Source: Isoetes taiwanensis
Taxonomy: Eukaryota > Streptophyta > Lycopodiopsida > Isoetales > Isoetaceae
Direction of reading: 5' to 3'
NCBI GenBank assembly: GCA_021234155.1
Contig: JAJEKV010000003.1
Location: 20,320,386 to 20,384,385, forward strand
Length of the DNA: 64,000 nt
Position 1 is the first letter of the stretch, and each line of letters starts with the position of its first letter. Positions 13,181 to 33,882 of the stretch are shown here, piece by piece. The position numbers and the translations under genes were made by a program. Below the pieces are notes generated by a model. That model had not been told where the DNA came from. It made no database searches and saw only the letters and a program-made list of their open reading frames with translations.

Positions 13181-14894
13181 ATAAAGAAGAAGAATCTTTG
13201 GCCTTCTACTGCTCTGCATATATTAATTGATGAATTTTGCGGTCTTAAACTGAATAAGGTAAATTTGATTAATTTAAGGGAAAGGATTACGATGGGATAG
13301 AGAAGATAATTAATGAAGAGGTGAGCACTACGTACAAGAGGACAAAAGACAAAAATAAGATAAAGGGTCTAATAAAAAGAATACAAAATTAAGAATGGCC
13401 AAGAATCCAAAACCGTGGCATCTCTTTGCCCAGATTGATGCCATGCTAGGATTCTAGCAAGGTGATGGGTTTGCCTGCTGGCACAAAGGATTCAAGGTTC
13501 AGTAGGTCACTTATGCAGGCCAGATTATATAAGAAAAACACTTCAAACCCTTTATAAAAGGGACTTACTGAGTCTCAAGAATCTGCTTCTAATATCACAG
13601 GAAAATTCTTCTACTTGGACATACTAGGTGGCAACATTGGATGATCTTCTTAAGAATAGTCCATCAATTGTTGTGAAAAATGTGATAAAGCGATCAACTC
13701 TAGCTTGAAGGGGGAATAAGGGAAGATGTGGTGAAGAAAGGGCTAGATCTGTAGCAGCAATTTCGGCACATGCTATGAAGGAGGTCACTAAGATTTACAA
13801 AGATCTGAAGTTGCTAGAGTTGTAGCAAAAGAAGGAAGCAGCGGAACGTTGCACTAATGCCGGGAAAGAAGGGGAGGCACGAAGGAAAGAAGTTGTAAGA
13901 ATGAATCAAAACATTCAAATAGAGTTGGTTGAAATGAAAATGCAAGTGCTGATACAGCTGAATGGTAGAAATACTCGCATTTTTTATCTTCTACAAACAA
14001 ACCCAGTAGATACCACTGATGATCATGCATTCCCAGGTAATTGCAGTAGCAGCATGAGACCTTTTTATGACACTTAGTTTGCTCAGTCGCACGTTTGTAT
14101 GCTAAATAACCATTATGATTAGAAAAAAAGGTTCGAATATTTGATTCCATTTGATTAAGTAGGAGACAAATCATGAAAGTTGGAGGACTACGTATTTGTG
14201 TTATTGGATCCCTCTCTCCATGAGAGTGAGTGTCTTTATGTCTGATTCCCGGATCTTATAGTCAAAGCGCTCAGTCTACTCAAGATTTGTCTTCAAGAAA
14301 CAAGTGCCAGCAAGAATCGCGTCCATTAAATGATACATCTCAGTGTCGGACATGCCCCTTAGAGATCGAAGAATCCTTTGTCGGTTTGTCAGGGACATTA
14401 GCTTGATCATCGTTCAGTTCCTTTTATCCACCTGCGTACCATTGACAAGAGACCTTAGACCTTATAGCATTAGACATAAAGATCCACTGCTTCTCGTCTT
14501 TCAGGTCTTTAACCTTGAGAGTAATGGTGGCGACTTCATAAAATTCATGTTTTATGAAAGAAAAGGTTAGGAAGATCGTCATGGCGATTCGCTTGAGTAA
14601 AGCACACAAAAGAAAAATATATATTATGTCTGGGCTATTATAGAAGGTGACCTTCTGGACCAGAAACTGCACAAAAAGAGGGAGCATTGCTTGATGTTGA
14701 TTTCGGAGTTGCTGTAGCCTCGCAATAAGGGGTTCCCTTTATACCGTATTGGCAATAATTGTGCTCTTTAGAGAGTCATAGGTACTTGGTATTACTCAAG
14801 TTACTGTTCAAAATCCTTGCCCTCCTTCTTGCGTATCTTTTGAGAATTCAGCTTACTGCTGAGTTGATGCGATCATTTTACATAGGATTTAAGC
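13181..14894. other. no recognisable gene
   Basis: AT-rich sequence. 13700-14000 has a decayed, lysine/glutamate-rich reading frame on the plus strand (REARRKEVVRMNQNIQ) with stops, possibly an old coiled-coil coding region. Nothing else can be supported. Confidence 0.35.
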
Positions 14895-15190
14895 TGCTAA
14901 AATAGAATGGTTGCTAGATATAATGTAAGATTTCTTTTTTCTCAGTTGCGCAGGATCGGTGACGATGTCATGTGGAGAGTCTCTGAAAGATCTCAACAGA
15001 TTTTGTGTATGCTCATTGGATCTGGTCCTACACGCATGTAAGATGCTAAAATAGAATGGTTACTAGATATAATGTAAAATTTCTTTTCCTCAGCTGCGCA
15101 GGATCAGGTGACGATGTCATGTGGAGAGTCTCTGAAAGATCTCAACAGAGTTTGTGTATGCTCATTGGATCTGGTCCTACACATCATGTA
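14895..15190 (+). repeat. 149-bp tandem duplication resembling a duplicated exon
   Basis: Units 14895-15043 and 15044-15190 are near-identical. Each has a pyrimidine-rich tract ending CTCAG, a 90-base segment containing GATGTCATGTGGAGAGTCTC, and then ATGTAAG. A plausible acceptor and donor therefore flank the same segment twice. The copies differ by one base in length (GATCGGTGACG versus GATCAGGTGACG), so they read in different frames. Confidence 0.65.
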
Positions 15191-15323
15191 AGAGGAAGTA
15201 GCGATACAATTCTATATGCTGATACTCGTGAACCATGAAACACCCATAGGATAGTACCTTTTATATTGCTCCAGTTTTGAGGCATGATGGAAACGCTCTT
15301 GTATGCAATCTTATTGATTATAG

Positions 15324-15345
15324 GGGTAAACGCACGCTGTGGTGT
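15324..15345 (+). repeat. left terminal inverted repeat of the large transposon
   Basis: Starts GGGTAAAC and contains GCACG and TGTGGTGT. It matches the right end at 33857-33878 in inverted orientation with two mismatches. A further CTTTGTGGTA copy lies about 65 bases inward in each arm. Confidence 0.72.
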
Positions 15346-15567
15346 ATCACAAACGCGCATTTTGAGGCCACATTTTTGCACCTTCTTTGTGGTAGAATCG
15401 GGTGGTGCATACCGAAGCGGAGATTGCGGGAGTGAAAATTAATGAGCGTCGGTTATTTTAAATTTTATGCCACGTCATTGTTCCTCATTTCAAATAAGGA
15501 AATAATCACCTCTTCTTCTGCTTTTTTGCCGCTTCTTGCCGATTGAACCCTAATGGAGTCAGAGTTG

Positions 15568-15572
15568 AATGC
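15568..15572. repeat. left target-site duplication of the Ty3/gypsy element
   Basis: AATGC, repeated at 23735-23739 immediately outside the other LTR. Removing the element and one AATGC restores a continuous reading frame in exon 1 of the surrounding gene. Confidence 0.88.
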
Positions 15573-17176
15573 GGAAATGCTCCTAGAGCATTAAACACTT
15601 GAAATCAAACAAAATTTTGAAGCCTTGAGTAACGTTCATATTAAATAAAGATAATAATAACAAAAATATTACTTAGGAACATTGGGAGTGTCACCACCCT
15701 CATCGTCAGAGGACACTCTAACATGTTCTGAGTCTCTAATGGAATATTCACTAAGGAATTTGGTCAAAATGTCGTGCACATCACATGCACAACCATAAGA
15801 GAAGTTGGAAAGCGACATGTAAATAACTTCAAAGCTCTTCTAGGTCAATCTTAACTACGTCGGTCAATGGCAACCTCGGATTCCGCTTCATCTGGAAGAC
15901 AAAAGGAAGCAAAAGTGGGGTTAGTCCTGGAAAAGGACTAAGTGGGCAACCGCTACCTGGGTCTAGATAATCTGGCAAGAAACACAACATTACAACACAA
16001 CTTCATCAGTTAATAATGTCCAAGGATGATCAATCCCTCGCCCGGGCTCACACGTATATCGTTCGCGACACGAATATACGTTCACATACCAATCACCAGG
16101 TATGCACGTTGCTCAACTGCTCCAGCCCTCCGGCAACGACGAAGGGGCGGGTTCATTCAAACAGTTAAATCATATCTTTTAACCATTCCACTTAACCATA
16201 TCAAAGTAACAGGAACATAATAAAAGGAAATGTTCAACAACCATTTTCTACAAACAAGGAAACCTATAAGGAGTAATGGTTTTAAGCCTTAATCAACTAA
16301 TCTAGTGGATGTTTAATAAATTAAAAACCAAGAATTAAATAAGAACGGTAAAAAAACACAAACAAATATAACAAAAGGCTCTGTTTGCGCGAGGACAAGG
16401 CTGGAATGGCAAAAACAGGGTCAGAACAGGTCGGGATGGCGAGGAATCATGCCGGATTTATGGAATCAGGGTCAGACGGCTGCGGGATACTGGAATCAGA
16501 GTGTGAGAGGCCGTTCTACGGTTTGTTCTATCTTCAAGCTTTTAGGTATGCAACTGTAGAGCTTGAGGAAGCTTTAGATGGAATGATCTGCAACCGAAAT
16601 CCATATATGAAACATTCTGGAAGAAAACAGAGAAGATTAAGAGGCATCTGCTTAGAATACAGCAGAGGCTTGGATTTACGAAAAAAAATCCCTTTCTGGA
16701 GAAGTAAAACAAGAGAAGCTGGAGAATATAAAGTAAAGAAAACACAAGTATTCAAATCATGGTGCAATGAACTTCAAGGTCTGGCTCCGGTTAACCCACC
16801 AGTTCCGATTTTCCTCTTCTATAACAAGTCTTGATGGCGCAGGCAAAAGCTTTTTGAAATTTCGATCCACAAAAGACGTTTTTTCTTTGATAATATTATA
16901 ATCCTAAAGTTAGAGAAATATCCTCCCCTTTTCCATTAATAGGAGAAATCTTCCTATTCTTACAGATTCCTAACTGGTTAATCTCCCCTAATCTTAGCTT
17001 CGCTATTCTAATTCAAATCCCATATTCCATCAAATATCTAGTATACCATAGTATGAATACCATATTTACCTTATTCCCCAACCATTGCTATTCTCTTCCA
17101 TAATTAAATATTCCTACCCTAAGGTTAAGACTTAAAATAAAAACGTCAACTTACCCCTCCCCCTAAGTGCGTAACA
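15573..17176 (-). repeat. 3' LTR of the Ty3/gypsy element (1,604 bp)
   Basis: On the minus strand it begins TGTTACGCAC directly after the polypurine tract. Compared with the 5' LTR it lacks about 108 bp around 16270 and 23 bp near 16718. The larger gap is bounded by GAGTAA in the other copy, which suggests deletion between short direct repeats. Confidence 0.88.
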
Positions 17177-17192
17177 TTTTCTCCCACCCTGA
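17177..17192 (-). other. polypurine tract
   Basis: The minus strand reads CAGGGTGGGAGAAAA immediately before the 3' LTR start TGTTACG. This is the plus-strand priming site of the retrotransposon. Confidence 0.85.
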
Positions 17193-17208
17193 AAATTTAC
17201 CCATGTCC

Positions 17209-20200
17209 TCATGGAGAGAAATCGGGATAACAATGATTGAACTCCTCAACGTCAATCCACGACGCATCCTCAATAGGTATTCTTGCCAATGCATAAGATA
17301 TTTCTTGATTTCTCGATTTCTCAATTTTCGAATGTCGGTATCAAGGATTTGCTGTGGTTTAAGTAGCAATTTCGAGTCTTGAGCTACCAAATCATCCGGT
17401 TGTAGAACATGTCGGTTTTTAGAAAGATAGCGACGAAGAATTCCTACATGAAATACGTTATGCACCCTTAAATGATTTGGCAAGTTCAATCGATAAGCTC
17501 GAGTTCCAACTCGACCAATGATTTCAAATGGTCCAGCAAACCGTGGAGCTAATTTCTTAGCTTTCGGAAACTTCAAAGAACCTTGCTTAGGATTTATCCT
17601 CAAAAACACTTTATCCCCTATAGCAAATTCACAATGATGCCTCTTTTGATTTGCATATTGCTTTTGCCTATTCTGCGCAACCTGTAAATTATGACGCAAA
17701 AGTTTCAGTTGCTCTTCAATCCCTTTGACCCTTTGATTTGAAGCCTCAACTTGACATAGAGGATCTCGCCAATTAACAGGACATCTGCAATCTTCTCCAT
17801 AAAGTGCTTGGAATAGGCTCATCTTGAGAGAATCTTGGTACGTATTATTATAAGCAAACTCCGCAAGGGGTAAGATAGAATCCCAGGTATGAGGGTGATC
17901 CATCACATACATCCTTAACATGTCTTCAAGAACATGATTAACTCGCTCAACCTGTCCATCAGACTGGGGATGATATGCTGTGCTTATCCGAAGTTGAGTA
18001 CGAATGTTCTGAAAGAGTCCTTGCCAAATTGACCTGTAAACTTAGTATCTCTATCTGACACAATTGATATAGGCATACCATAAAGCCGAAAAATCTCCTT
18101 AACAAAGATACGAGCAATATCCATGGCAGTTGTTGTAGACTTAGTAGGTAGGAAGTGAGCTTGTTTAGTCAATCTGTCAACTACCACATAAATTGCATCA
18201 TAACGGATCGCGTTCGAGGAAGGCCAACAATAAAATCCATGCCAATACTTTCCCATTTTCGCGTAGGGACGTCCAAAGGTTGTAGAAGACCCGGTGTTCT
18301 ATAGGTAAGCAAGTAAGAACATAATACTGAATATATCGCTTCATTCCTGGCCAAAAGTAATGCTGACAAACTTTTCGAATAGTTTTCTTAAGTCTAGGAT
18401 GACCTGCAATAGGATTATCATGAGATTCATGCATTATTTCGTGTCTTAATTGCTCATTATCTGGAACACAAATACGGCCTCTGTAAAACAAGATTCCATC
18501 CTTCAGACAGTAATTCTTAACATCTTGTCCTTGTACCCAAACAATCGCATATCTTCTTCAACTGCTGATCCTCCTGTGTTAAAGTTCTAAACTTCTCATT
18601 CCATGGATTCTGAATTTTACTCACCATAGTATATAGAGGCCTACGAGATAAGGCATCAGCTACAACATTGTCCTTACCTGGAGAATAATCTATTTGAATA
18701 TCATACTCTTGTAGTAACTCCATCCAACGACGTTGACGATTATTCAAGTGGGGCTGGGTCAGAAAATCCTTAAGGCTACGGTGATCCGTTTTGAGGACAA
18801 ATGGTTTTTCCAAAAGATAATGTCGCCATACTCTTAAAGCATGCACTATAGCTAGCATCTCTAGATCATGAGCTGGATAATTAGATTCAGCCGGTGTAAG
18901 CTTGTGAGACTCATATGCGCAAAACCGTCCATCCTGCATCAAAACTCCACCAATTCCAAGACCTGATGCATCGGTTACAACTCGAAATGGTTCATTCATG
19001 TCTGGTATCCTCAATATAGGAGCAGAAGTCAACGCTTCCTTGAGAGTTTCAAAACTTGCACCGCACTTTTCACTCCAAAGGAAGTCTTGCCCTTTGCCTA
19101 GCAAAGATGTAAGAGGTGCAGCTTTCTTGGCAAAACCTTTAATAAACTTCCTGTAATATCCTGCAAGACCAAGAAAAGCTCTTACTTCCCGTACATTGCC
19201 AGGTTGTGGCCAAGATTTAACGGCATCCACTTTGCTTGGATCGGGTTCAATTCCCTTTTCTGAGATAACGTGTCCTAGATAAGTCATACGATGTTGGGAA
19301 AAGGAGCACTTGGACATCTTTGCGCTCCTTAAAATAGACAGTACTTTCCTTAAGTATTGCACGTTCCTCCAAAGTCTTTGAATAAATCAAAATATCATCA
19401 AAGAATACTAACACATATTGATCAAGTTGTGACCTGAATGTGTCATTCATAAGTCTCATGAATGTAGCAGGAGCATTAATCAGTCCAAAAGGCATAACCA
19501 CAAATTCATAATGGCCATACCAAGTCCGAAATGCTGTTTTATATATATCAGATTCTTTAATTCGGATTTGGTGGTAACCTGATCTCAAATCAATTTTAGT
19601 AAAATAGCTGGCATGTCCAATCTGATCAAATAACTCATCAATCCTTGGCAAGGCATATCTATTCTTAATGGTAATTCTATTCAACATCATGTAATTAATG
19701 CAAAGCCGTAAAGTTCCATCTTTCTTTTTGACAAACAACACTGATGCCCCAAAGGAAGAGGTGCTAGGCCGAATAAACCCTTGATTCAATAGCTCAGTTA
19801 ACTGCTTCTTAAGCTCAGCCATCTCAAGAGTATGGAATCGATAAGGTGGTCGAGAAGTTGGTGTAGCTCCTGGTTCCAGTTCAATTTCATGATTAGCTGC
19901 CCTAAACGGTGGCAACTCTGTTAACTCTGGCGGAAAGACATCTTGAAATTCGTCTAATACATTCTGCACTTCTTGGGGAATTGTCTCCTCTTTAACTTCG
20001 GTATGACATGCGAGGTACCCCACAAACATTGAGCATTTCTTGTTCATACATCTTCTTGCTGCTTTCAAACTTAAGAGTTCAAGTTTTCTTTCTATTGGAG
20101 CCCCACAGAGTTTAACTTCCACATCCAGATCTGGTCGACACCATACTATCTCCTTCTCACAGTCAATCAGGGCACGATTTTGTTTCAACCAATCCATGCC

Positions 20201-21472
20201 TAAAATAGCTTGATACTGTCCTAGACTTACAATACCTCAAAGTCAACCTTAGATGGAAAATCACAAATCTAGAATGGTAAGGCAGGCACAAGAGCTTGGG
20301 TGAACTTGATCTTTCCATCTGCCATTTCTACACTTCGTACTGCATGACCTTGTTGTTGAACAATCTTCGGCGATATAAAACTATTGGTGCTGCCACAATC
20401 AATCAAAAATTTAATTGGATACTCAAGAATTTTACCTGGCACATGAATTACTCCAGTTTGAGCCGTAGGCTGACTTCCATCGATAGCTGCATACACGCGC
20501 ATGGATTCCTGGGCCACATCTCCAATCGTAATAGCTCGAGCATTACATGGCCTGTTTTCCTCGATTACCCTTTGAAGTATTTTCATTCCGTGGATTGGAT
20601 ATTCCATAAGCGGTTCTGCGTTCCTGTATTTTCTGCGGACAATCTCTTACTTGATGACCCACCTGATGGCAGTGAAAACATTTGTTTTCCCTCAATAACT
20701 TCTCCCTTATCTTATCCGCTTCCGATTGAGTTTGTACTCCATTAGTATTCTTCAGCATCATAATTGCTTCACTTTTCCGACGACAGTTATCGGGGTGATT
20801 CCACCCAAAATCATCACTTGTACGCTTCTTCCATGATGCGTTTAGTACCTCCTCCTTATACTTGGCAGCTCTAATCGCTTCACCCAAGCTAGGATACATT
20901 ACTCCTCCAATTAAAACAGACAACTCTGGCTTCAAACCCTTGATGTACTTGTCTGCTAGCTGTTCTGGTTCAAATGGAGGTCCGTAAGGTTGCAACTGCT
21001 GAAATTTAACTGTATAATCTTCTACCGATTTTGTCTGCGTCAAGTTCAAGAAATCATGCATCTTCGCCAATCTATATCCCACAGGCAAGTAATGTAGCTG
21101 GAAAGCTTTTCGGAACACATCCCAGTCAATATCTCCAAAGGTAAGCTTATGGATCTTCTTATAATCGTTCCACGAAATCTTAGCAAAGCTGGTGAGTAAC
21201 AAATCCGCAATAACAGCTTTCTGCTTCTCAGGCGTCTTCTTTATGCTAAAATAGAATTCTATGCCACGGAGCCATGCATCTGCATCATCGCCCATGACAT
21301 CCTTTCCCGTAAACCTTTCTTGCTTGACATTGCGAAGGATCTTGTTAATCTCGTCCGCTACTGGATCCTTTGCGATAGGCATCTGGTTCTGGAGTAAACC
21401 CAACTGTTGCTGCACTCCTTGCAGTATTTGACCTAGCATTCGTACTGCAGCGTTGTCATCTCCTCCCTCCAT
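17209..21472 (-). pseudogene. Ty3/gypsy gag-pol, frameshifted
   Basis: Gag starts at 21472 (MEGGDDNA) and includes the capsid-type region and a CCHC knuckle CFHCHQVGHQVRDC near 20680. A frame change leads into the protease frame (20607-20269) with the active site I-DCGST-NSFI. After stops near 20270-20200 the RT frame (20197-19247) holds RSGYHQI and the catalytic VFFDDIL. A frameshift near 19360 joins RNase H (TDASGLGIGG, TDHRSLKDFL; to 18517). The integrase zinc finger (HDNP...GHP...C) lies at 18491-18300, the catalytic core ([18 protein letters not shown]) in 18256-17984, and the C-terminal GPF-type domain near 17600-17450. A chromodomain remnant follows (PQQILDTDIRKLRNREI), finished in another frame (DASWIDVEEF) with a stop at 17209-17211. 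Several frameshifts make it non-functional as it stands. Confidence 0.92.
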
Positions 21473-21715
21473 GTTAATCTACAATCCACTTTAACAAGTT
21501 CGTTAGAGTTCTAACAAAGACAATCCAAGTTCCAATCCTTAACATTCGGTTAAATGCTAAGTCAAGAATGGTTAACGCAAGTAAAACATATATTTTTTTA
21601 TTCATTCTCAAGAGAGTACACACGTGATCCATGCACGCAAACTTCTATCCTTTCAGGAGGTTCAAAAGATCTATGGTGCTCAAAGAATGCTATTTGGGCT
21701 TGCTTTCGGGTTTTT

Positions 21716-21928
21716 CTAGTTCCTATTTCGAAGCCTCAGGTAGGCTTTGGCAATTTTCATTGTCCTAGGGATCCAAACTTGGTTGACGTAGCTAGAATAT
21801 GGAGGATTTATTCCTAAGGCTTTCCTCTCTGGCTCGGGGCTGGATACTTCGGGACCCTCTTCCTCATCACTGGATATGTTGATGACCTCCTTTTCCTCGC
21901 TGTCACTTGGAATATTGATGATCTCCAA
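21716..21928 (-). CDS. short acidic leader ORF before gag (70 aa)
   Basis: Lies between the 5' LTR and gag on the element's sense strand. It starts MEIINIPSDSEEKEV and continues INISSDEEEGPE. The two hydrophobic-then-acidic blocks (EIINIPSDSEE, VINISSDEEE) resemble SUMO-interacting motifs. It may be an additional gag leader or a captured fragment; homologues would decide. Confidence 0.35.
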   Translation of the reverse strand: MEIINIPSDSEEKEVINISSDEEEGPEVSSPEPERKALGINPPYSSYVNQVWIPRTMKIAKAYLRLRNRN

Positions 21929-21962
21929 TTGTCTGGCCCAATAACCGGTTAGCGATCAGGAA

Positions 21963-21981
21963 CCTAGGCTCTGATCCCAAA
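21963..21981 (-). other. primer-binding site, tRNA-iMet type
   Basis: Directly after the 5' LTR end (TTTCA at 21982-21986 on the minus strand) the sequence is TTTGGGATCAGAGCCTAGG, a variant of the plant initiator-Met primer site TGGTATCAGAGCC. Confidence 0.8.
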
Positions 21982-22078
21982 TGAAACGCTCCTAGAGTGT
22001 TAAAACACTTGAAATCAAACAAATTTTTGAAGCCTTGAGTAACGTTCATATTAAATAAAGATAATAATAACAAAAATA

Positions 22079-22417
22079 TTACTTAGGAACATTGGGAGTG
22101 TCACCACCCTCATCGTCTGAGGACACTCTGACATGTTCTGAGTCTCTAATGGAATATTCACTAAGGAATTTGGTCAAAATGTCGTGCACATCACATGCAC
22201 AACCATAAGAGAAACGTTGGAAAGCGACATGTAAATAACTCCAAAGCTCTTCTAGGTCAATCTTAACTACGTCGGTCAACAGCAACTCAGTCAACGGCAA
22301 CCTCGGATTCCGCTCCATCTGGAAGATAAAAGGAAGCGAAAGTGGGGTTAGTCCTGGAAAAGGACTAAGTGGGCAACCGTTACCTGGGTCTAGATAATCT
22401 GGAAAGAAACACGACAT
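22079..22417 (-). CDS. ORF within the LTR, 112 aa, unknown
   Basis: Open on the element's sense strand: LTELLLTDVVKIDLEELW in the middle and an acidic end RVSSDDEGGDTPNVPK. The other LTR has the same sequence with a two-base deletion near 15800, so it is broken there. It resembles the C-terminal part of a small host-like protein, but I do not recognise it. Coding status is uncertain. Confidence 0.3.
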   Translation of the reverse strand: MSCFFPDYLDPGNGCPLSPFPGLTPLSLPFIFQMERNPRLPLTELLLTDVVKIDLEELWSYLHVAFQRFSYGCACDVHDILTKFLSEYSIRDSEHVRVSSDDEGGDTPNVPK

Positions 22418-22764
22418 TACAACACAACTTCATCAGTTAATAATGTCCAGGGATGATCAATCCCTCGCCCGGGCTCATACGTATATCATTCGCGACACGA
22501 ATATACGTTCACATACCAATCACCTGGTATGTACGTTGCTCAACCACTCCAACCCTCCAGCAACGACGAAGGGGCGGGTTCATTCAAACAATTAAATCAT
22601 ATCTTTTAACCATTCCACTTAACCATATCAAAGTAACAAGAACATAATAAAAGGAAATGTTCAACAACCAATTTTTACAAACAAGAAACATATAAGGAGT
22701 AACTTGGTACATGCGAGAAGCATTATGACAACATAAGGAAGTAAAAGAAAGGTTAGGCAAAAAT

Positions 22765-22835
22765 CGAGTTCTTAGCTAGAATCGAACTTGGATCTCTTAG
22801 AGTAATGGTTTTAAGCCCTAATCAACTAGACTAGT
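22765..22835 (-). repeat. tRNA-like (SINE-head-like) segment inside the 5' LTR
   Basis: On the minus strand an A-box-like TAGTCTAGTTGATTAGGGC is followed about 35 bases later by a B-box-like AGTTCGATTCTAGC. Spacing and order fit a tRNA-derived internal promoter. The other LTR keeps only the A-box half because of its 108-bp deletion. No clean cloverleaf can be drawn, so it is not a tRNA gene. Confidence 0.4.
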
Positions 22836-23734
22836 GAATGTTTAATGAATTAAAAGCCAAGAATTAAATAGGAAAGGTAAGCAAACACAAATAAAGATAA
22901 CAAAAGGCTCTGTTTACGCGAGGACAAGGCCGGAATGGCAAAAACAGGATCAGAACAGGTCGGGATGGCGAGGAATCATGCCGGATTTATGGAATCAGGG
23001 TCAGACGGCTGCAGGATGCTGGAATCGGAGTGTGAGAGGCCGTTCTATGGTTTGTTCTATCTTCAAGCTTTTAGGTATACAACAGTAGAGCTTGAGGAAG
23101 CTTTAGATGGAATGATCTGCAACCGAAATCCATATCTGAAACATTCTGGAAGAAAATAGAGAAGATTAAGAGGCATCTGCTTAGAATACGGCAGAGGTTT
23201 GGATTTAAGAAAAAAAATCCCTTTCTGTAGAAGTAAAACAAGAGAAGCTTAGTCTGACAAGATTTCCTTCGTAAAGGAGAATATAAAGTAAAGAAAACAC
23301 AAGTATTCAAATCATGGTGCAATGAACTTCAAGGTCTGGCTCCGGTTAACCCACCAGTTCCGATTTTCCTCTTCTATAACAAGTCTTGATGGCACAGGCA
23401 AAAGCTTTTTGAAATTTCGATCCACAAAAAACGTTTTTTCTTTTATAATAATATAATCCTAAAGTTAGAGAAATATCCTCCCCTTTTCCATTAATAGGAG
23501 AAATCTTCCTATTCTTACAGATTCCTAACTGGTTAATCTCACCTAACCTTAGCTTCGCTATTCTAATTCAAATCCTGTATTCCATCAAATATCTAGTATA
23601 CCATAGTATGAATACCATATTTACCTTATTCCCCAACCATTGCTATTCTCTTCCATAATTAAATATTCCTACCCTAAGGTTAAGACTTAAAATAAAAACG
23701 TCAACTTACCCCTCAACCCCTTAGGTGCGTTATA

Positions 23735-23739
23735 AATGC
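23735..23739. repeat. right target-site duplication of the Ty3/gypsy element
   Basis: AATGC, identical to 15568-15572. Confidence 0.88.
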
Positions 23740-24469
23740 CACTGGTTACACGATGAAATCTCTCCTCAAACAAGAGATTGTGCCCCATGAAGATCTAAAG
23801 AAGCTTTGGGGTGACAAAGTTCCAAATAAATCTGGCTACAGGTATTTTCCCCCAAATGTTTGTTCAAACTGAAAAATTAAGGCATATGTTTTCTTGTACA
23901 TGTTGAAGAATCTGAGCAATGGACAATATAAAGAGTTCATGCAAATTTACAAACGAATTACAGGGAAGCCACATACATGGAGTGGAATGGCTCCTGGAAC
24001 CTGGGCAGTGGCTTATTATCTACATATAAAGGGGGAGGCTGTTAATTGGAAGAGCTTCTTGGATTATTATAGAACTCAGGATGAGAAAGCAGAGGACAGT
24101 TCTTCTAGACCCAAGAGAAAGCATAGGCAAATCTAACCTGAGCAGGAAGAAAATAGTATAAGTGATAGGGATGATGAAGATGATAGAGAAAAAACCAAAT
24201 CAGGTTCCTCTAGACCACACATTCAATCTGAACTCACAATCAAAACAGAAAAGCAGAGCAATGTTTCGAGACCAAATATGCCATTGCAGGTATGCTCAAT
24301 TATTAGTTGTATTACAATAGGAAAAAATCTCAAATTTGAATCTCAAATTTGACCTAGATTGTTTGTATCAACACAGAAAAGGTAACCTCAAATCCACTTC
24401 AAGAATCAGGTATGTCTACTACCATTTTGCATCATGTTGGCTGTATTGTCATGTTGTGCCTCTATGATG

Positions 24470-25080
24470 CCATTTGTAATGGCTGCCACAATGATAGATG
24501 AGGTATGTGTGGTCTGGTAAGTGGTGAGTTGTTGGCATGTTGTTTGTGGTGTAGTGATGAGAATAATGCTAGCGTTTGTGGTGTCGTGGTGGAGTGGGGT
24601 GTTATGCTGCCAATGGTGCTAATAGTGTTGCTACATTGTGGCGCATGGCATATGTGAGGTGATAGTAGCAACAAGTGAGGTGTGGTGTACCAGTGTGGTG
24701 TGATGTAGGTTATTGTGCTGCCAATAGTGGTGATAGTGCAGCCTATGTTGTGTGGTGTATGCACCGTGTTGTGTGGTATGTAATGTGTGGTGTGGTGTAG
24801 GTTATTGTGCCGCCAATGGTGGTGTATGTTGTGTAGTGTATGCACCGTGTTGTGTGGTATGTACTGTGTGGTGTGGTGTAGGTTTTGTGCCGCCAATGAT
24901 GGTGAATGTTGTGTGGTGTGTGGTGTGGTGTAGGTTATTGTGCCGCCAATAGTGGTGATAGTGCAACCTATGTTGTGTTGTGTGGTGTGTGCAACGTGTT
25001 AGAGAATACCTTGTGTTGTGTTGTGTGGTGTGTGATTGTGATCTTCCATCAATATGTGGCTTATTATGTTAGGAGGCTGA
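24470..25080 (+). repeat. TGTGGTG-rich minisatellite filling an intron
   Basis: The intron between exons 24382-24409 and 25107-25659 consists mostly of irregular TG/TGG-rich units such as GTGTTGTGTGGTGTATGCAC with interspersed GTGCCGCCAATGGTGGTG. Roughly 80-bp higher-order copies are visible at about 24710-24960. No coding content. Confidence 0.75.
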
Positions 25081-26043
25081 CATATATGGAGTGTTTTGTT
25101 TTGCAGACTATGGCAGACTTGTGAAGAAATGATTAGCTGCAACATCAGCTAGGTTTGATAGATGCAAGCAACAATTGCAAGCAAACGAGAGTAGAAAAAT
25201 TGATATCAATAGAAAGATTGAGTTGATGGAGCATAAAGCATCAAAAATTAGAGCTGATTTGCACAGATGGCAGTCAATCATGACTGCAAATCCAAAAGCA
25301 GCAGAGGGTGTTCGGGTTGTAAGCGAACTAGAGGATGAAGAGCTAAATGGTACAGTGTTGCTTGGGCTGAATCAATTGAATAAGGAACTAGTAGGAACTG
25401 AAATTGAGCTAAAGGCATGTGAAGCCTTACTGCTGGAGCTGCAACCTCGAATGCAAAGATTTGAGATTTTCTCTGAACATAGTAGCCATGACACTCCTTT
25501 AGATCCTGCACTTTTAATGCTTCTTGAGGCAGAAGAAGAGGGTGATGAAGCTTGTCCATATTGTGGACGGTGTCTGAAATGGGAGGGTAAATTGTTGCCA
25601 GTTATGATAGCAGAATGCAATCATCAGTATCACATTCCATGTCTGTCACACCATTTGAGGTAAACATTATCATCTCTAACCTTGTTTGCAGACTCTATTG
25701 ATATTGGATTTGTTTTACAGATACTCTAGAACCTGTTGCAGCCCCAGTTGTGCCCACATTATGTCTGAGACATGGCTTTTGACTTTTGGTGTTCGAGTGG
25801 TACCACAAGAACCAATAAACACAAGTAAGTACCTTAACTAATGTTTACTGATGTTGTCACAGGTCTACTGACTTAGTGTTTGCAGAATTGCAGAAATTTG
25901 AGACCAAGGATATCCAACAGTTATCCACGCCTCAATCAGTTATGAGACTACAAGATACCTCCCGGGTGCACCTAGAATTTACCCCATTGGATACTTCAAA
26001 GTCAATCCCAGCTCCTCAATAAGTACCAATGCCACATACATGA

Positions 26044-26916
26044 TTTATTTTTGGGGAAATTATAAGAATGCCCTTGTATTTTGACGAAATAATTAAAATG
26101 CCCCTATATTTTAGTAAATTATCAAAATGCCCAAAATGCCCCTGTTTTTTGCATGAGACAAAAATCGACCGCAAATTCTACCTTTGTGCATGGAATACTC
26201 TTCTTAATCATGCCACAAATGCTCTTCTTGTGGTATGGCAGATGGCTCTAAAAGCCTTGTGCTCATCCACTGAAGAACTTGAAGCTCCAAAAGTACTGAA
26301 GCTCTAATATTATCTCGCAGGTTGAAATGCAAAGGGACACTGAATAAGTTGAAGCTCCATCACAGGTACATATTCCTGGGGGTTTTCTTTTTGTTCTTTT
26401 TCCTTTGAATCATTTAGTTTCAGTTTCTTGATAGAAATCCTGGATAAACGCAGAGAATGCATGATAAATCCAAGAATTATGGGTGCATGCACAATTTGAG
26501 ACTTCTGTTTTAGACATTTTTTCTGCAATATTGCGATGCTATCAGCGCATCCCTTCTAAGGCTTGAACAGTCCGTCAAGGTAACAGAAGAAATTCTACAG
26601 GGATTCTTATAAGAATCGAAAAAACAAGGCAATTGGTCTCATGGGAGCAATTAAAAACCAAAGGGGGAAGTACAGGGAAGCTTGCTGCAGATAAATTTGG
26701 ATTTGGATCATACCTTTACCTGAACCTGATGATTAAGCTCTTAGAGCTTAAATTCGTAGCATGGGATCAGTTAATTAAGGCACGAAGGTAGAATTAGTGG
26801 TTCATTCTTGTCTCAGACAGAAAACAGGGGCATTTTAATAATTTACTAAAATATAAGGGCATTTTAACAATTTTGCCAAAATACAATGGCATTTTTATAA
26901 ATTTTCCTTTATTTTT
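26044..26916. mobile_element. MULE-like MITE, 855 bp (26053-26907) with 9-bp target duplication
   Basis: Inverted terminal repeats of about 130 bp: 26053-26189 begins GGGGAAATTATAAGAATGCC and 26780-26907 ends in the complement. Both arms contain AAAATGCCCC and TATATTTTAGTAAATTAT. The element is flanked by TTTATTTTT at 26044-26052 and 26908-26916. Long TIRs and a 9-bp target duplication fit a non-autonomous Mutator-like element. The 590-bp interior encodes no transposase. It interrupts the plus-strand gene region just after the stop at 26020. Confidence 0.85.
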
Positions 26917-26939
26917 TTTTGTATTTTTCTTTGGTCTTG

Positions 26940-27826
26940 CTCATTTCAATTATGTTACAGAGATAAATGCTACTGCAAACCATCAAGAAGTGCAGTGCAT
27001 CTGTTTTAGGAGGAAAAATTAATTCCCTTGAGACTCATTCTACATAGGATCCTGCACAGACAAACGTTTTGCTGCTGAACATGAGCCGCAAATGGATGCA
27101 GATGATGAAGTTAACAAATAAACCCCGGATCCTGAACAAGATGCAGCCCGCTCATCAAGTCCAATACAACCTCAACCAAGAAAAACCAAGAGGTTAACTG
27201 AAATTCTCCTTGTTCTGGATTTTAATGGGGTTTTGGGCAAGTTTTATGACTTGAAAGAGAGGATCCCTGCATCGACCGACCAGAAGTGACCCTCCAGGAA
27301 TTGAACCTTCAAAAGGCAGCAGTTTCCAGGCCTGGATTACAGGAGTTCTTAGAGTGGTTTTTTAAAATGTGAGATTGCATTGTGGTACAGCATGGTTAAG
27401 AGTAATGTCGACTTGTTGGTGAGAAAGTTGATGCAGGAATATAAGGGCAGATTTCTTTTTATTTGGAATCAGGATGACTGCACCAACACAAAGTTAAAAG
27501 TAGTTAATAAGCCAATTTTCCTTAAGGATCTATCCAAAGTGTACCAGAAATACTAGAAATACCAAGTGAAAAATATATTGTTGATAGATGACACCAGATA
27601 TAAGGGTTCTGCCAACCAGCTAAACATCATGATATGTCCAAATAGTTTTGCTCCGGACAGATTGGATTCCAATTTCATTTTGGAACAACTCAAACCATAG
27701 CTGGAAGGACTTCTGGCGACAGGAAGTGTGCCTGCTTATGTGAAGGAAAATCAAATGTGGAACATGTGGGATTCTGAAGAGTCGCGCAACTGCATGAAAA
27801 TATTCGACAATTATTTTCATAAATGA
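26940..27826 (+). pseudogene. FCP1/NIF-like HAD domain (decayed), in the plus-strand transposon gene
   Basis: After a possible exon start at about 26962 and a linker (DADDEVNK, PDPEQDAARSSSP), the frame gives T-E-I-L-LVLDFNGVLGKF, the first HAD motif with Asn in place of the second Asp. Then come SRPGLQEFLEWFFK, CEIALWYSMVKSNVDLL, FLFIWNQDDCT, KPIFLKDLSKVYQKY and ILLIDDTRYKGSANQ, in the order of the FCP1/SCP-like phosphatase fold. It ends near VPAYVKEN. In-frame stops are at 27119 (TAA), 27554 (TAG) and 27698 (TAG), with a frameshift near 27280. Active FCP1-type enzymes use DxDx(T/V); the D-x-N here suggests altered or lost phosphatase chemistry. It lies on the same strand between the RING-like exons and the Ulp1 exons, so it may be one gene or two. 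Confidence 0.72.
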
Positions 27827-27909
27827 ATCTTGTAAAACTCTTTGAAAGTCAATATAAGTAAAAAATTTTCTATGATATGTGTTGTACTTTTTCAATTTAA
27901 AATATTTGA

Positions 27910-28807
27910 ATGGACTGTGAGCAAATGTTCTCGTGTGTATTTAGAACTAGAGATGATAGAGCTTCGGCAGTCCCTGTCTATCTAAAGCCACATATATATT
28001 TGGAAGTATTGCTGAGTAAAAGTGAATCTGTCGTGATTAGCTCTACCGACATCAAAATTTTGGAAGCTGATACGCAGTGGTTCAATGATCAATTGATCCT
28101 CCTTTTCTCAAGGTGATACTTTTATCTGATTTGTGATCATCAGGATTGTGCCATCATATGCATATGTTTGCAGATGTATGGAATACTACTTGATGCTCCA
28201 AGGAATGAGCCATCCCATTCATTTCTTTGACCCTTTTTTCACTCGACATTACAAATAGTTACAAAACAATAAGGAAACATGTGAATCTGGATAAGTGTCA
28301 GTACATGTTTATGCCTGCTTGTGATGGACATCACTGGACCTGTTTTTTGATCGTAAGCCGCGCGTGTCTCGTATAGAGATATAAACCAGCAATATATCAC
28401 TTTGATAGTATGGGCTTGCATGGCAGAAGCAGACATATTAAGAGGTTAGTGCTTGCTCATTGCATTTTGCTGTTGTCACATAATGACAACAAACTTTGAA
28501 TGCAGGTTCCTGGAATTGCTTGGACACAATAGTTTCAGCTTTACAACCTCAATGTTGTGAAAATGTCCAGAACGCCTCTTCAAACCGATGACCATTCATG
28601 TGGCCTTGGTGTATGTTCGTTTATGCACAAATTTGTGAGGGGGTACTTGAAAGGAGTGAATATATTGTTGCATAATATAGTAAGTCAACTCAAATGTAGC
28701 AGACAAACCAAACTCTGTTATTGACAAAGTGTGATTAACTGCAGGTTGTGGACATTTCAGACCAGGATCTAGTTGATGTTAGAGTGTTCATGCTTGAGAA
28801 GCAATAA
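27910..28807 (+). pseudogene. Ulp1/SENP-type (C48) cysteine protease domain, decayed
   Basis: The exon ending at 28112 contains SSTDIKILEADTQWFNDQLI, like the start of Ulp1 domains (x-D-x-x-x-L-x-x-x-x-W-L-N-D). The next begins at 28174. The catalytic pattern follows: His in Y-M-F-M-P-A-C-D-G-H-H-W (about 28300), Asp in YHFDSMGLHG (about 28395), Gln and Cys in LQTDDHSCGLGVCSF (about 28580). A last exon, 28745-28807, ends LEKQ and stop TAA. Introns use GT-AG (28113, after 28436, 28681). TAG codons near 28375 and 28527 and a frame change near 28250 break it. Ulp1-like proteases cleave SUMO or related tags in the nucleus; plant transposons often carry such domains. The triad is preserved but the frame is not. 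Confidence 0.78.
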
Positions 28808-29065
28808 AAGCTGGAACTGAGAGGAACATATGTATTAGGAAGTATGTAGGTGCATATGTCACCTCGTACTTTCAAATCACTGTATATCTTTCTTATGTAC
28901 ATAATTGTTACTGCAATCTCGATTCATTTAAATGAAAATTCATATTCAATTATATATTCTCTGTCACAAAATAAGGCATCAAGTATTCAAAAGAAATCAA
29001 GACAAACTCATTTTTACAGCTGAAGCACAAAACTTCAGATGAGTTCTGAAAATTACAGAATGGTT
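28808..29065. other. spacer between convergent gene ends
   Basis: 258 bp between the plus-strand stop (28805-28807) and the minus-strand stop (29066). AT-rich, with AATTATATATTC-like sequence near 28950 that could hold poly(A) signals for both strands. Confidence 0.5.
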
Positions 29066-30889
29066 TTACATTTCATCCTCATCAGAAAGAATTTCGGGTA
29101 ATTTCTGTAAAATTCTCTCCTCATCTAAAGGATCCAGCCTATATACAATTTTGTTTTGACGTTTAGTTGGTGACATGTGAAGTCTGATTGCACAGATCTG
29201 TGTTGTGAATACTATGTCTAAGGTGTCTTTACTGCAAAGATCATAGCTGACGGTTGATCTTTCGCCCTTCTTGTAATACATACCTTCTACGACACTATCA
29301 CCGGTGAGGTACCATGTTCTATTGAGTTGGAAGTCTTTCTCCATTATTTATTTTGGTTTTGTGCATATCAGAATCCAAAATTCAGCACCCTCATCATTCC
29401 CTTTTGGACCAACTCTAAGTGCCTCTGCTAATATCGTGGGATTGGAGGAGAACAAGGACCTGCTGGATTTATGGTTTTCCTCAATGTCAGCATGCACATT
29501 GGAGGATGGTACAATAACTTGAAGTTTCCAATCATCAACATAGTCCTTGTTCGCACAACTGTCCCACATGCCATCCAAGCAATAGCTGCAGAAGCATGAA
29601 AGTTCCCTCGTGTGCAACTGCAATGGAGATTCATGATTGAATGCATGTACACAATGGATCTTCATAGTATCCAAAATCCTTTCTGCACCCCATGCTTTCT
29701 TTCTATCTATATCCTCCACCTTGACTTCCCAAAAGAACCTTTTTATATTTTTTCTCTTGCTGGTTTCAGATGCGTTCATCCGCTCGGATGTTCCACAAGT
29801 AAATATCTCTTCAGCAACTTCTACCACTTCATGAGCATTACCCAATTTTATGTTGCTGTATTTTAATTGCAGTTGTCTTAACCATCTCTTCAACTAAGCA
29901 GCCTTGCCATCATGTTCACCTTTCCCGTTGGTATAACCAAAAAAATTCCACATTATATAGACTTCAGTGTCGTTTATGTACCTAGCCACAAAGTAACATG
30001 GTCTAGAAGCCTTGAATTAAGATGCTTCACCATCTGAAAACACATATAATGTCTCTTTGGCACCCTTTCTTTCTGCTCCAGATATTTGTGGTGCTTTATG
30101 AAGCAGTGTTGCACGAACAAAGTATCGTGTTCCCTATCATCTGATACATAGTAATGTGTTTCCTTGATGATCTCATCTGCCACTGAGTCATACTGATATG
30201 TTATTTGAACCAAAATGGTAATCTGGTTATTGACCCAACGCATCGACTGCACCTCCTCTTGTTCCTTGAATGTATAGTTCTCTGCAAAATCGACTACCAA
30301 AAGACATGCATCTACAAGAGATTCTCCAGAAACTCCTTAAATTGTTTTGCCTGCCACTTTTAGACGCTCTTTCAGTTTATCTAGAAGCTCCTTAGGTTCT
30401 GTCTCATTGTACCGATGAGTCAATCTCCTAACAGAACTCGAGATGTTGTCTTTTTCATATTCAATGTACTCCCATTTCATTTTCCTGTTACTACCACTTT
30501 CTTCCATGGGACAGGTCTGAAACTTCTTGATTCCACACAGCTTACAATCTCCAAGGATGCACGCCTTCTTGTGAAACTCATCTAATTCACTATGTGGATA
30601 CAATATAGATCTCCACAAGCTTTCTATACTTGCAATTTTATGCTGGTGTACCCTGCATTGACCAAGTTCATGTGCAAGTGCGATTCTTCGGATGTTTGGT
30701 TCTCATCCCATTGAGTCCATCCACTAGCATTTGTATCCTCACATGCTGAATGCAACAACAACTATTGAAGTCCTTCAATTTCACAACAAACCAAGGTTTT
30801 AGCTTCTCAAAAGCTCGACGACGAATCTTAATTTGTGGATGTTGATCCTTGAACCTATTGAACAATAGCATCTGCATGAAATGAACACT

Positions 30890-31800
30890 AAACTATTAGG
30901 ATGTGTATACTACACCATACCATGCACCGTATCATGCCCCACACTAATCATATTCACCAGACCGAGCACCTTAGTGCTGTGTATATTACCACACACCACA
31001 CCACACCATGCATCACACACATCATAACCATCAAACAGACGAGACTAAACTCATGCCACACCACACACCACAGAGCACATACCATGCACCACACATTCTA
31101 CATCACACATTCTACACGCTATACACCATCCACCACACATACCATACACCAAATGTATGGTGGTAGCGAGGAGTAGTGGGACATTGTGCAGGGTGATAGA
31201 GTATGGTGGTGGGAGATGGTGGGGTGTGGTGTGGGACATGGTGGAGTGTCGTGGTGAGAGATGGTGGGGCGTAGTGTAGGACATGGTGGACTGTGGTGGA
31301 GTGTAATGGTGGGAGAGTGGTAGGCTTCAAATGTGGTGGTAATGGAGAATGTGGTGCATGTGGTGGTGGGAGATGGTGTGTTTGAAATGTGGAGATAAAT
31401 GTGGAGGTGGCAAAGATGTGGTGGTAGTCTATGGTGGATGAAATGTAGTGGTAGGATAGATGGTGGGGTGTTATGTGGTGTGGTGGTGGTGACAAATGTG
31501 GTGAACTGTGGTGGTGAGCGATTGTCGATTAAATGTAGTGGTGGTGGCGAATGTGATGGAGTGTGGTGGCGGGAGATGGTGTGCTTCTAGTGTGGTGGTA
31601 ATGAAGAATGTGGTCAATGTGGTGGTGGGGGTGGGGGGGGAGGGGGGTGTGTGGGGGAGTGGGGTGGGGTTTGGGGAGAATATATAAAATAATGAATCCA
31701 CATATCATACATTTAACATGCACTTACCCACATGACACCATAAATATCACGCACCCCACCCCCCCACCCCACCCCACCCCACACCACACATCACATCACT
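30890..31800. repeat. CA/TGG minisatellites in the transposase intron
   Basis: 30890-31160 is CA-rich (ACCACACACCACACCATGCATCAC-like units). 31160-31600 is TGG-rich with units such as GGTGGGAGATGGTGGGGTG about 40-50 bp apart. 31608-31680 is almost pure G and T. 31745-31800 is C-rich. On the gene's sense strand the first part reads TGTGGTGTGG, like the intron of the plus-strand gene. Confidence 0.75.
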
Positions 31801-32026
31801 TTGATCCTATTTGGTATGCCATAAAAAATTTGCCTAGCCTCCTCTCATAACATTTCTGAAATTCGTACCCTGATAATAATTACATATCTTTCCTAATATT
31901 AAAGATCTACCCACTAAATCCTGTCCCTGCACTAGATTTTTGGCATTTCGTTCTCAAGCTTCCAAGTTTATTCCGGCAATAGTTAACAGGAGGTTCAGAG
32001 ACAATTAAGGCCAAGCTAGAGTGAGC

Positions 32027-32383
32027 GAGGATGGCCTTTGGTTTGCTTTAGCCAAGGCCCGTGACCAGTTGGATATGCCTAAATCCACCTTCTTTGCTCA
32101 ATTCGAAGCCACCCTAAACGCATTTAACAGACTGGATGCTGGGCCATCAATAGCTATTTTTGGGGTCGAATTGATGGGAAGATAGCTTTCAGACAAGGTC
32201 TCTAACCTTATGTTACATGCAGCTGCAAAGACAGGTATAGCATGGGTTATTCGGCACTTGCTCGCTCTGAATCGGCAACAGGGGAAATTATTGACAGGTA
32301 TGCACTTACCACGAGGGGATGCAGGAAGCACTGGCGAACCTGATGCTATGCAATTCTGGGATGACTGCACAAAGCTTGGATAG
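32027..32383 (+). pseudogene. unknown coding remnant inside the transposase intron, opposite strand
   Basis: A plus-strand frame with clear protein-like composition: E-D-G-L-W-FALAKARDQLDMPKSTFF, then AQFEATLNAFNRLDAGPSIA and, after a single TAG at 32183, SDKVSNLMLHAAAKTGIAW and VIRHLLALNRQQGKLLTGM, ending at TAG 32381. It is about 118 codons. It probably starts further left (RRFRDN near 31995). Mostly helical; I do not recognise the family. It could be a third transposon gene, a captured host fragment, or an older insertion. Confidence 0.45.
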
Positions 32384-32749
32384 TGCAAAAAACAGTCATT
32401 TTGGATGCACCAGCAGTGGATCTAGTAGTATCAGCATTTCCTGCTGCTCAGGAAATGCATGGGTAATAGTTCTCGGGTACAGAGCTTTCAATGAAAAGCC
32501 AAATTTTGTAATATAGTGCTTCTTTTTTTAATATATTATAAACTTTCGAACAGAGATGTACTTTCATCTGACATAAATTTGTCTTTATCAATTCAACTAA
32601 ACTTTTAGGATTAGTTTTCAATTATCTGTCATTCTCAAATATTTTTAGACTGTATACGCAGACCCAGTAAAGGAATATAGTACTTGTAACTCAGTTCTGT
32701 CATGTTCTAATATTCCCAACATTAAATATTATTTAGCTGCATTTCAGAG

Positions 32750-32850
32750 TCAACTACACACAATTCACATGCTGCATACATTACACCACAATCATTGTAC
32801 AACACAATAACCACTACATGCACCACCACACTAAGCACCATAACTAAGAA
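32750..32850. repeat. CA-rich simple repeat
   Basis: Irregular ACACCACAA/CACCACCACAC sequence close to the donor site of transposase exon 1 (32879). Similar to the other intronic repeats of this element. Confidence 0.55.
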
Positions 32851-33856
32851 AATATGAATAACAGAATTTATAAACTAACCCGTGATTCCTCCAGATAGTG
32901 GGCAGCATGTTCTTCTCTTATATTTCTCTCCAATCTTCTAGTTCTAACATCCTTTGTGTTAGGAGACACTCTGGTGTTCTCAATCCAAAATTTTTGAATC
33001 TTTTCTATTTGTTCATCTGAAATTGCATCGAATCTTTTAGCCCTCTTATAAGAAACCCATTTCCCACCACTGTAATCGATCTCTGCCCTATTTTCTTTGC
33101 CTTTTGCAGGTTTCTTGGGTGAACACCTAATACCTTTCCAAGATCTCTCTGGCTGATTTTATCACTTGTTTCAGAATCTGCACGGCTTGGTACAGACATT
33201 GCAAGGCAGCTATTCTTGGCTGCTAGGCAATCATTGCTGGTAGAGAGTTTCACAGTTTGCATAGAGTCCAAGAGGCTCCTAGTGACAATGCTCTTGGCTT
33301 CCAAATTTCTTCAATATTTTATCCCTATAAATTTTTTCAATGTTTTATCCCTCAAAAACCTCAAGTAAAATTTCTTTCTTCATGCTATCCTCAATTCTTT
33401 TGGTCTGTTTGTGGAAAGACGTTAGCAAATTAAGGACAATACGACGTTTACTACTTGCACTTCTTGATGAATCGGATCCTTCTGCCAATTCTGCAAGCTC
33501 CAATCTTTCCTCTATTCTTCTTTTCCACTGGCGTCTTTTCTTCAGCATTTCTTCTTCCTTGGTTCTTCTTCATTTTCTCCTATCTGAAATGCCAGTTTGT
33601 GGACAGATTACCTCGTTGACATCCATATCTACAATGGATTGGAGATTGCAGCAGGGAGCCAAAGAATAGAACATAGGCAAAGAACAGGAAGGGGCCAAAT
33701 AATAGGAATTTGAATTTTAGTTTTGAAATTAGAATTTCCCCCACAAATTGGGACTCCATTCTTAAATAACGGCAGTTGAGCGGTGCCATAATTATAATTT
33801 CATACCACAAAAGTGGCAGATGCACGACCACATTTTGGGGGGACAGCCAAATTGGG

Positions 33857-33878
33857 ACACCACATCGTGCTTTTACCC
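33857..33878 (-). repeat. right terminal inverted repeat of the large transposon
   Basis: Plus-strand end is GTGCTTTTACCC followed by ATAG (33879-33882). It is complementary to 15324-15345 apart from two mismatches. Confidence 0.72.
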
Positions 33879-33882
33879 ATAG

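Follow-up and report, generated by a model that had tools for sequence, protein, structure and literature searches.

A probable dead copy of a high-copy inverted-repeat transposon family with a conserved convergent partner gene in Isoetes taiwanensis

What occupies positions 15324-33878 of a 64,000-nucleotide stretch of the Isoetes taiwanensis genome (contig JAJEKV010000003.1; the whole stretch is referred to below as the window)? A preliminary description took this segment to be a large terminal inverted repeat (TIR) transposon flanked by 4-bp duplications and belonging to no named superfamily, with a gene for a DDE-like transposase convergent with a gene for a RING/HAD/Ulp1 partner protein. 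Our analysis makes it very likely that the segment is a dead copy from a high-copy family of ~10-kb TIR DNA transposons which encode a DDD (three-aspartate) transposase and a conserved convergent partner. It is the partner gene that is more unusual, the transposon type itself being likely a known one.

Boundaries, copies and true size of the element

The two 22-bp termini, GGGTAAACGCACGCTGTGGTGT on the left (15324-15345, plus strand) and GGGTAAAAGCACGATGTGGTGT on the right (33857-33878, minus strand), are identical at 20 of 22 bases, and the tetranucleotide ATAG stands directly outside each (15320-15323 and 33879-33882). Within the window the terminus is matched only at these two ends, compared with no match in 100 shuffles. 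The genome that holds the window (1,658,258,908 bases in 1110 contigs) contains 440 forward and 442 reverse matches with at most two mismatches, whereas a reversed control gave 3 and 0. Among the 100 matches listed, 24 pairs of neighbours less than 30 kb apart point inward, 18 of them with a spacing of 9.5-12.0 kb; pairs of neighbours in another order at less than 30 kb number 4. Three inward-pointing pairs are spaced 22.3-22.8 kb (G000:C778:285765, C908:1706115 and C908:6825086) and are perhaps copies with a common nested element or members of a longer subfamily.

Exact 4-bp duplications flank all 14 other copies that have both ends, making 15 of 15 with the window, and the ATAG pair is, as originally proposed, a target-site duplication. 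These 14 copies (nine whole ones and five end pairs) were all picked for matching both termini. Sequences with one end only (L001-L008 and L028, of which L008 is an end of L009) were left out of the count. The duplications are 15 different tetranucleotides, with G or C at 15 of their 60 letters. The preliminary description also named two observations that would count against its boundaries, namely similarity not stopping at 15324 and 33878 and empty sites lacking a single ATAG. The element withstood both tests. Similarity to the nine whole copies begins at 15306-15324 in eight (within 18 bp of 15324) and at 15384 in L010, and on the right stops at 33878-33882 in all nine (within 4 bp). The empty-site comparison was run on copy L020/L021 rather than on the ATAG of the window: when its flanks were joined with one TTCA between them, 40 places in the genome were scored as matches, 40/40 across the junction, and a single TTCA is present in all six empty sites that were aligned. 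The left flank of this copy also lacks 4 bp located 5 bp left of TTCA and 21 bp further out, gaps regarded here as unrelated changes. L020/L021 lies in another repeated gene family (LLQLDN..GQNKNR..., H-T-H-E-D) which resembles a different transposable-element gene and is also found at L050 3636-4879, and copy L018/L019 is inserted into a copia-like reverse-transcriptase frame.

Since the window copy by itself is diverged and broken, one could suppose that inverted repeats happen to surround unrelated genes and repeats, but the hundreds of genomic TIR matches, the unbroken series of exact duplications and the empty sites leave this reading next to no probability. The same three observations rule out a composite of unrelated repeats.

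The nine whole copies range in length from 9478 to 9941 bp. They share 91-94% mutual identity and differ by 3-5% from their majority sequence, and are therefore an old burst; none of the nine retains long uninterrupted frames for both genes. The 18.6-kb span of the window copy is inflated because two inserts lie within its core, so that the earlier description of the element as large does not hold for its intrinsic size. The first insert, at 15573-23734 on the minus strand, is a Ty3/gypsy long terminal repeat (LTR) retrotransposon foreign to the transposon, recognized by its open reading frames, its LTR stretches (15574-17172 and 21983-23730, ~93% identical) and a 5-bp AATGC duplication (15568-15572 and 23735-23739). 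The second, of ~0.9 kb (26017-26913), is a nested element like a miniature inverted-repeat transposable element, has an inverted repeat at 26057-26189 and 26780-26904, and is absent from copy L017. Without both inserts the window copy measures ~9.5 kb (the core being about 9.5-10 kb), matching the other copies.

The transposase and its superfamily

The genes run inward from ATG codons at 15553 (plus strand) and 33626 (minus strand) and converge, a layout that agrees with the preliminary description. The minus-strand gene has a first exon at 32870-33626 (3' limit approximate), partly similar to the N-terminal half of the protein P0004, and a second at 29066-30883 (5' limit approximate) whose stop codon is at 29066. 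The three candidate catalytic aspartates lie in VVDFAENYTF (30268-30297), FSDGEAS (within 30011-30040) and GKGEHDG (within 29885-29926), and stops interrupt the catalytic core in the window copy. Across 45 sequences D240 and D364 are invariant and D323 is conserved in at least 90%. A structure model is RNase H-like and matches integrases and transposases. The gene encodes a DDD transposase whose predicted fold is of the RNase H/integrase type and whose aspartates would pair residue by residue with solved active sites. The original DDE-like assignment stands as far as a DDE/D-type enzyme with an RNase H-like model is concerned; the triad is read here as DDD.

Relatives of the transposase occur in moss, liverwort, charophyte and conifers (Ceratodon, Calypogeia and Klebsormidium are among the genera), and none of the 120 homologs listed bears a transposon-family label. 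The proteins P0001, P0003 and P0004 match no Pfam family over its cut-off and do not match the Pfam integrase core at E ≤ 1. A sequence search of the PDB with P0003 returned no significant relative (best E 1.9), and no prokaryotic or viral relative was confirmed among 51 pattern matches in genome contigs and 20 in viral contigs. The terminus, duplication and gene set are now documented for a transposase family in which three proteins have no Pfam model over its cut-off.

At each end of the element, the transposase would be expected to bind the TIR together with the sequence next to it. The two ends have in common not only the 22-bp TIR but also a CCACATTTTGG-like subterminal motif, and both are plausible as putative binding sites. 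The enzyme would then cut the element out and join it to a target cut with a 4-bp stagger, using no fixed target sequence.

Several known superfamilies offer partial resemblances. Mutator-like elements (MULEs) have ~9-bp duplications and a MURA-type transposase, and Ulp1-carrying MULEs exist (Kaonashi type). The present element likewise bears a Ulp1 protease, but its duplication is 4 bp in 15 of 15 copies, its transposase is different, and its Ulp1 domain follows RING and HAD domains on the same strand; the duplication rules out a MULE. CACTA/EnSpm elements, which have CACTA-type ends and a 3-bp duplication, are ruled out by the GGGTAAA ends and the 4-bp duplication. Ginger elements combine 4-bp duplications and an integrase-like fold with a gypsy-type integrase core; they share the duplication length with our element, whose predicted fold resembles integrases in general, and may differ from it in the integrase core, for which P0001, P0003 and P0004 gave no Pfam match at E ≤ 1. 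Chapaev elements have a 4-bp duplication and a Chapaev-type transposase.

We consider the Sola superfamily the most likely placement, with reasonable though not high confidence. Sola elements have a DDD transposase, a 4-bp duplication and TIRs of 11-1124 bp, are found in a moss, and are mostly 2-9 kb long with some above 15 kb (PMC10741241); Sola1 is tabulated for Physcomitrella (PMC9033089). The element described here shares the DDD transposase of RNase H type, the 4-bp duplication (15/15 copies and 6/6 aligned empty sites) and a TIR of fitting length (22 bp), and its nine whole copies, at 9.48-9.94 kb, lie slightly over the usual size range as given there. Its relatives in seed-free plants, moss included, are compatible with Sola and not specific to it. 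Several points weigh against this placement. It rests on shared traits, known Sola elements having been compared by description only, and the 4-bp duplication is established for the window's family only. Sola2 elements are described as having AT-rich duplications (PMC3627910), compared with G or C at a quarter of the duplicated letters here. The convergent coiled-coil/RING/HAD partner and its Ulp1 domain are differences from Sola, being mentioned in none of the passages on that superfamily that were consulted, and the literature searched, which lacked most subscription papers and Repbase, yielded no account in which a RING/HAD or Ulp1 partner accompanies a Sola element.

A transposase lineage outside every described superfamily, using the same mechanism (DDD, TIR, 4-bp duplication) without being Sola, would fit the three proteins without a Pfam family over cut-off, the unlabeled homologs and the unmatched PDB search. 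We think it rather unlikely in view of the coincidence with the trait set reported for Sola (PMC10741241), the presence of Sola1 in Physcomitrella (PMC9033089) and the moss relatives. The earlier statement that no named superfamily fits is accordingly doubtful in respect of the transposon, and holds for the partner gene to the extent that no description of it was found.

The convergent partner gene

The plus-strand gene begins with MESEL... at 15553-15572, where its first exon is cut by the Ty3/gypsy element, and resumes at 23735-24450 (3' limit approximate) with an N-terminal domain that has no recognized fold, together with a charged tract. An exon at 25133-25663 carries a coiled-coil-like stretch and the N-terminal half of a RING-H2-like finger (CPYC at 25553 and CNHQYHIPC at 25616); the second half probably lies in the next exon (25740-25775), with a C-x2-C in SPSCAHIMSETW. 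There follow a HAD domain of NIF/FCP1 type at 27206-27800 (LLVLDFNGVLG at 27206; 3' limit approximate), which in the window is broken by stops and a frameshift, and a Ulp1 (C48) peptidase domain at 28066-28643 that retains H in HHWTC (28329), D in YHFDS (28395) and C in DHSCG (28590). With composites of the copies as queries, the HAD domain matches PF03031 at E 5e-15 and Ulp1 matches PF02902 at E 2e-6, over its cut-off, so that these two parts of the proposed partner are borne out. The order and shared strand of the RING, HAD and Ulp1 pieces lead us to infer a single protein. Among 7175 candidates, a search with the partner composite turned up no relative, a null that says little because the query was stitched and the collection, on our impression, mostly non-plant. 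An Rfam scan of the window gave nothing at the gathering threshold.

The region beyond the transposase was examined at eight other loci, representing six lineages of the transposase tree that are ~35-50% identical to that of the window. At no end of the related-family loci examined was the terminal heptamer of the window's family seen. Partner pieces convergent with the transposase are present at seven of the eight loci and in five of the six lineages: RING and HAD in L049, L051 and L059; the N-terminal domain and RING in L052, where the start of HAD was read by eye; HAD in L060; and all three in L061 and L062. The ratio of nonsynonymous to synonymous substitution rates (dN/dS) between L049 and L051, the single pair measured, is 0.23 for HAD, 0.35 for RING and 0.25 for the coiled coil, with 0.11 for the transposases; the partner core therefore appears to be under purifying selection.

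The notion of a conserved partner has to be set against four observations. The RING-H2-like finger matches zf-rbx1 at E 0.0029, under Pfam's cut-off; L050 has no partner and instead another transposon-like gene; the middle exon between RING and HAD has a dN/dS of 0.68 in the same pair; and for Ulp1, present in 9/9 copies of the window's family, tblastn with the Ulp1 of that family and a motif scan, no profile being used, gave no accepted match at any of the eight other loci. One H-W...D-S match in L051 lacks the Cys motif and was taken as chance. The fair test for Ulp1 amounts to about five loci because L052 and L060 hold other sequence at that place and L050 has no partner. Not being found at related loci, Ulp1 is therefore not essential to the system at large and is probably a later gain in the window's family.

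In the nearest relatives, L052, L059 and L060, a small open reading frame of ~88 amino acids (MAR/MAK start, ERLLE-M/L) takes the place of Ulp1 between the convergent genes. It occurs at L032 4456-4704 (minus), L035 33-281 (plus), L052 1862-2119 (plus), L059 2052-2306 (plus), L060 3873-4136 (plus) and L061 4464-4724 (plus), L035 and L061 being the same copy, and is 50-72% identical between lineages. Its strand is that of the transposase in L052, L059 and L060 and the opposite one in L032 and L035/L061; the window element and the nine copies show no match to it. Near-identical relatives include the copies at L032 and L035, at 98% identity. The simplest reading on the tree would be that the window's family gained Ulp1 and lost the small frame.

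What the partner might do is suggested by its domains, namely the N-terminal domain, coiled coil, RING and NIF-type HAD, to which Ulp1 would have been added in the window's family. NIF/FCP1-type HAD phosphatases have a DxD motif. The partner resembles plant NIF/FCP1-like HAD phosphatases in its PF03031 domain, but this domain is carried by a transposon alongside RING (and Ulp1) and its motif reads DxN or ExD/E: D-x-N in the window (D-F-N), L049, L051 and L060 (relatives read D-V-N or D-F-N), E-L-D in L052 and L059, and E-P-E in L062, that part not being seen at L061. Because DxD is altered at every locus showing that part, the HAD domain is at several loci probably a binding module and not a phosphatase. 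The likeliest role of the partner, to which we give about even odds, would be action on host ubiquitin/SUMO tagging, either countering silencing, the more likely purpose, or helping the transposase in chromatin.

The main rival, to which we give somewhat less credence, is that the partner would be a DNA- or transposase-binding cofactor, on the model of TnpA of Spm, using RING and HAD as scaffolds while leaving ubiquitin and SUMO unaffected. The altered HAD motif, the coiled coil and the charged tract suit such a cofactor; the RING cysteines and histidines, retained at loci strongly diverged elsewhere, and the intact H, D and C of the window Ulp1 do not. Plant transposons are also known to capture genes, and Ulp1 and NIF/HAD are host-type domains, the former limited to the window's family among the loci examined. 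Captured host DNA without any part in transposition is nevertheless improbable for the partner as a whole, given the recurrence of the N-terminal domain, RING and/or HAD opposite the transposase at 7/8 loci and in 5/6 lineages and the purifying selection in the measured pair. For Ulp1 alone host capture is plausible.

Few autonomous plant transposons have a selected second gene (MuDR, Spm and VANDAL types), and in some cases these genes have explained escape from silencing. It is conceivable, though we regard it as doubtful, that the present element belongs to a seed-free-plant clade of DDD transposons in which a second protein that edits host tags is standard, one highly successful family having added a SUMO protease and lost a small third gene, with a transposase possibly outside the named superfamilies. 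Were the tag-editing interpretation of the clade true, the transposon would encode an anti-silencing machine in which a RING is joined to a HAD domain that reads phospho-marks and is catalytically altered. The retention of the RING/HAD partner over diverged transposase lineages, together with the gain of Ulp1 in one abundant family, would make interference with ubiquitin and SUMO by a DNA transposon directly testable in a lycophyte.

Repeat arrays and flanking DNA

Both genes of the window copy contain a simple-repeat array that is CAC-rich on the minus strand and probably intronic, at 24460-25070 between partner exons and at 31051-31630 between transposase exons. The position of the former is also occupied by an array in other copies, with opposite orientation in L017, whose CAC-rich arrays (1068-1581 and 7188-7870) are inverted relative to each other. 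Because both window arrays are CAC-rich on the minus strand, it is the left one that is reversed compared with L017. Long overlapping frames are present at both array places in the nine whole copies.

Immediately outside the left end of the element is a direct repeat of ~158 bp (14887-15043 and 15036-15193, 93% identical). Beyond the right end, window positions 39450-64000 contain large tandem arrays with units of 8 bp, 19 bp, 325 bp and ~826 bp. Much of this array DNA recurs ~12.5-12.8 kb further along, and the G+C content is ~0.5 through most of 41000-64000.

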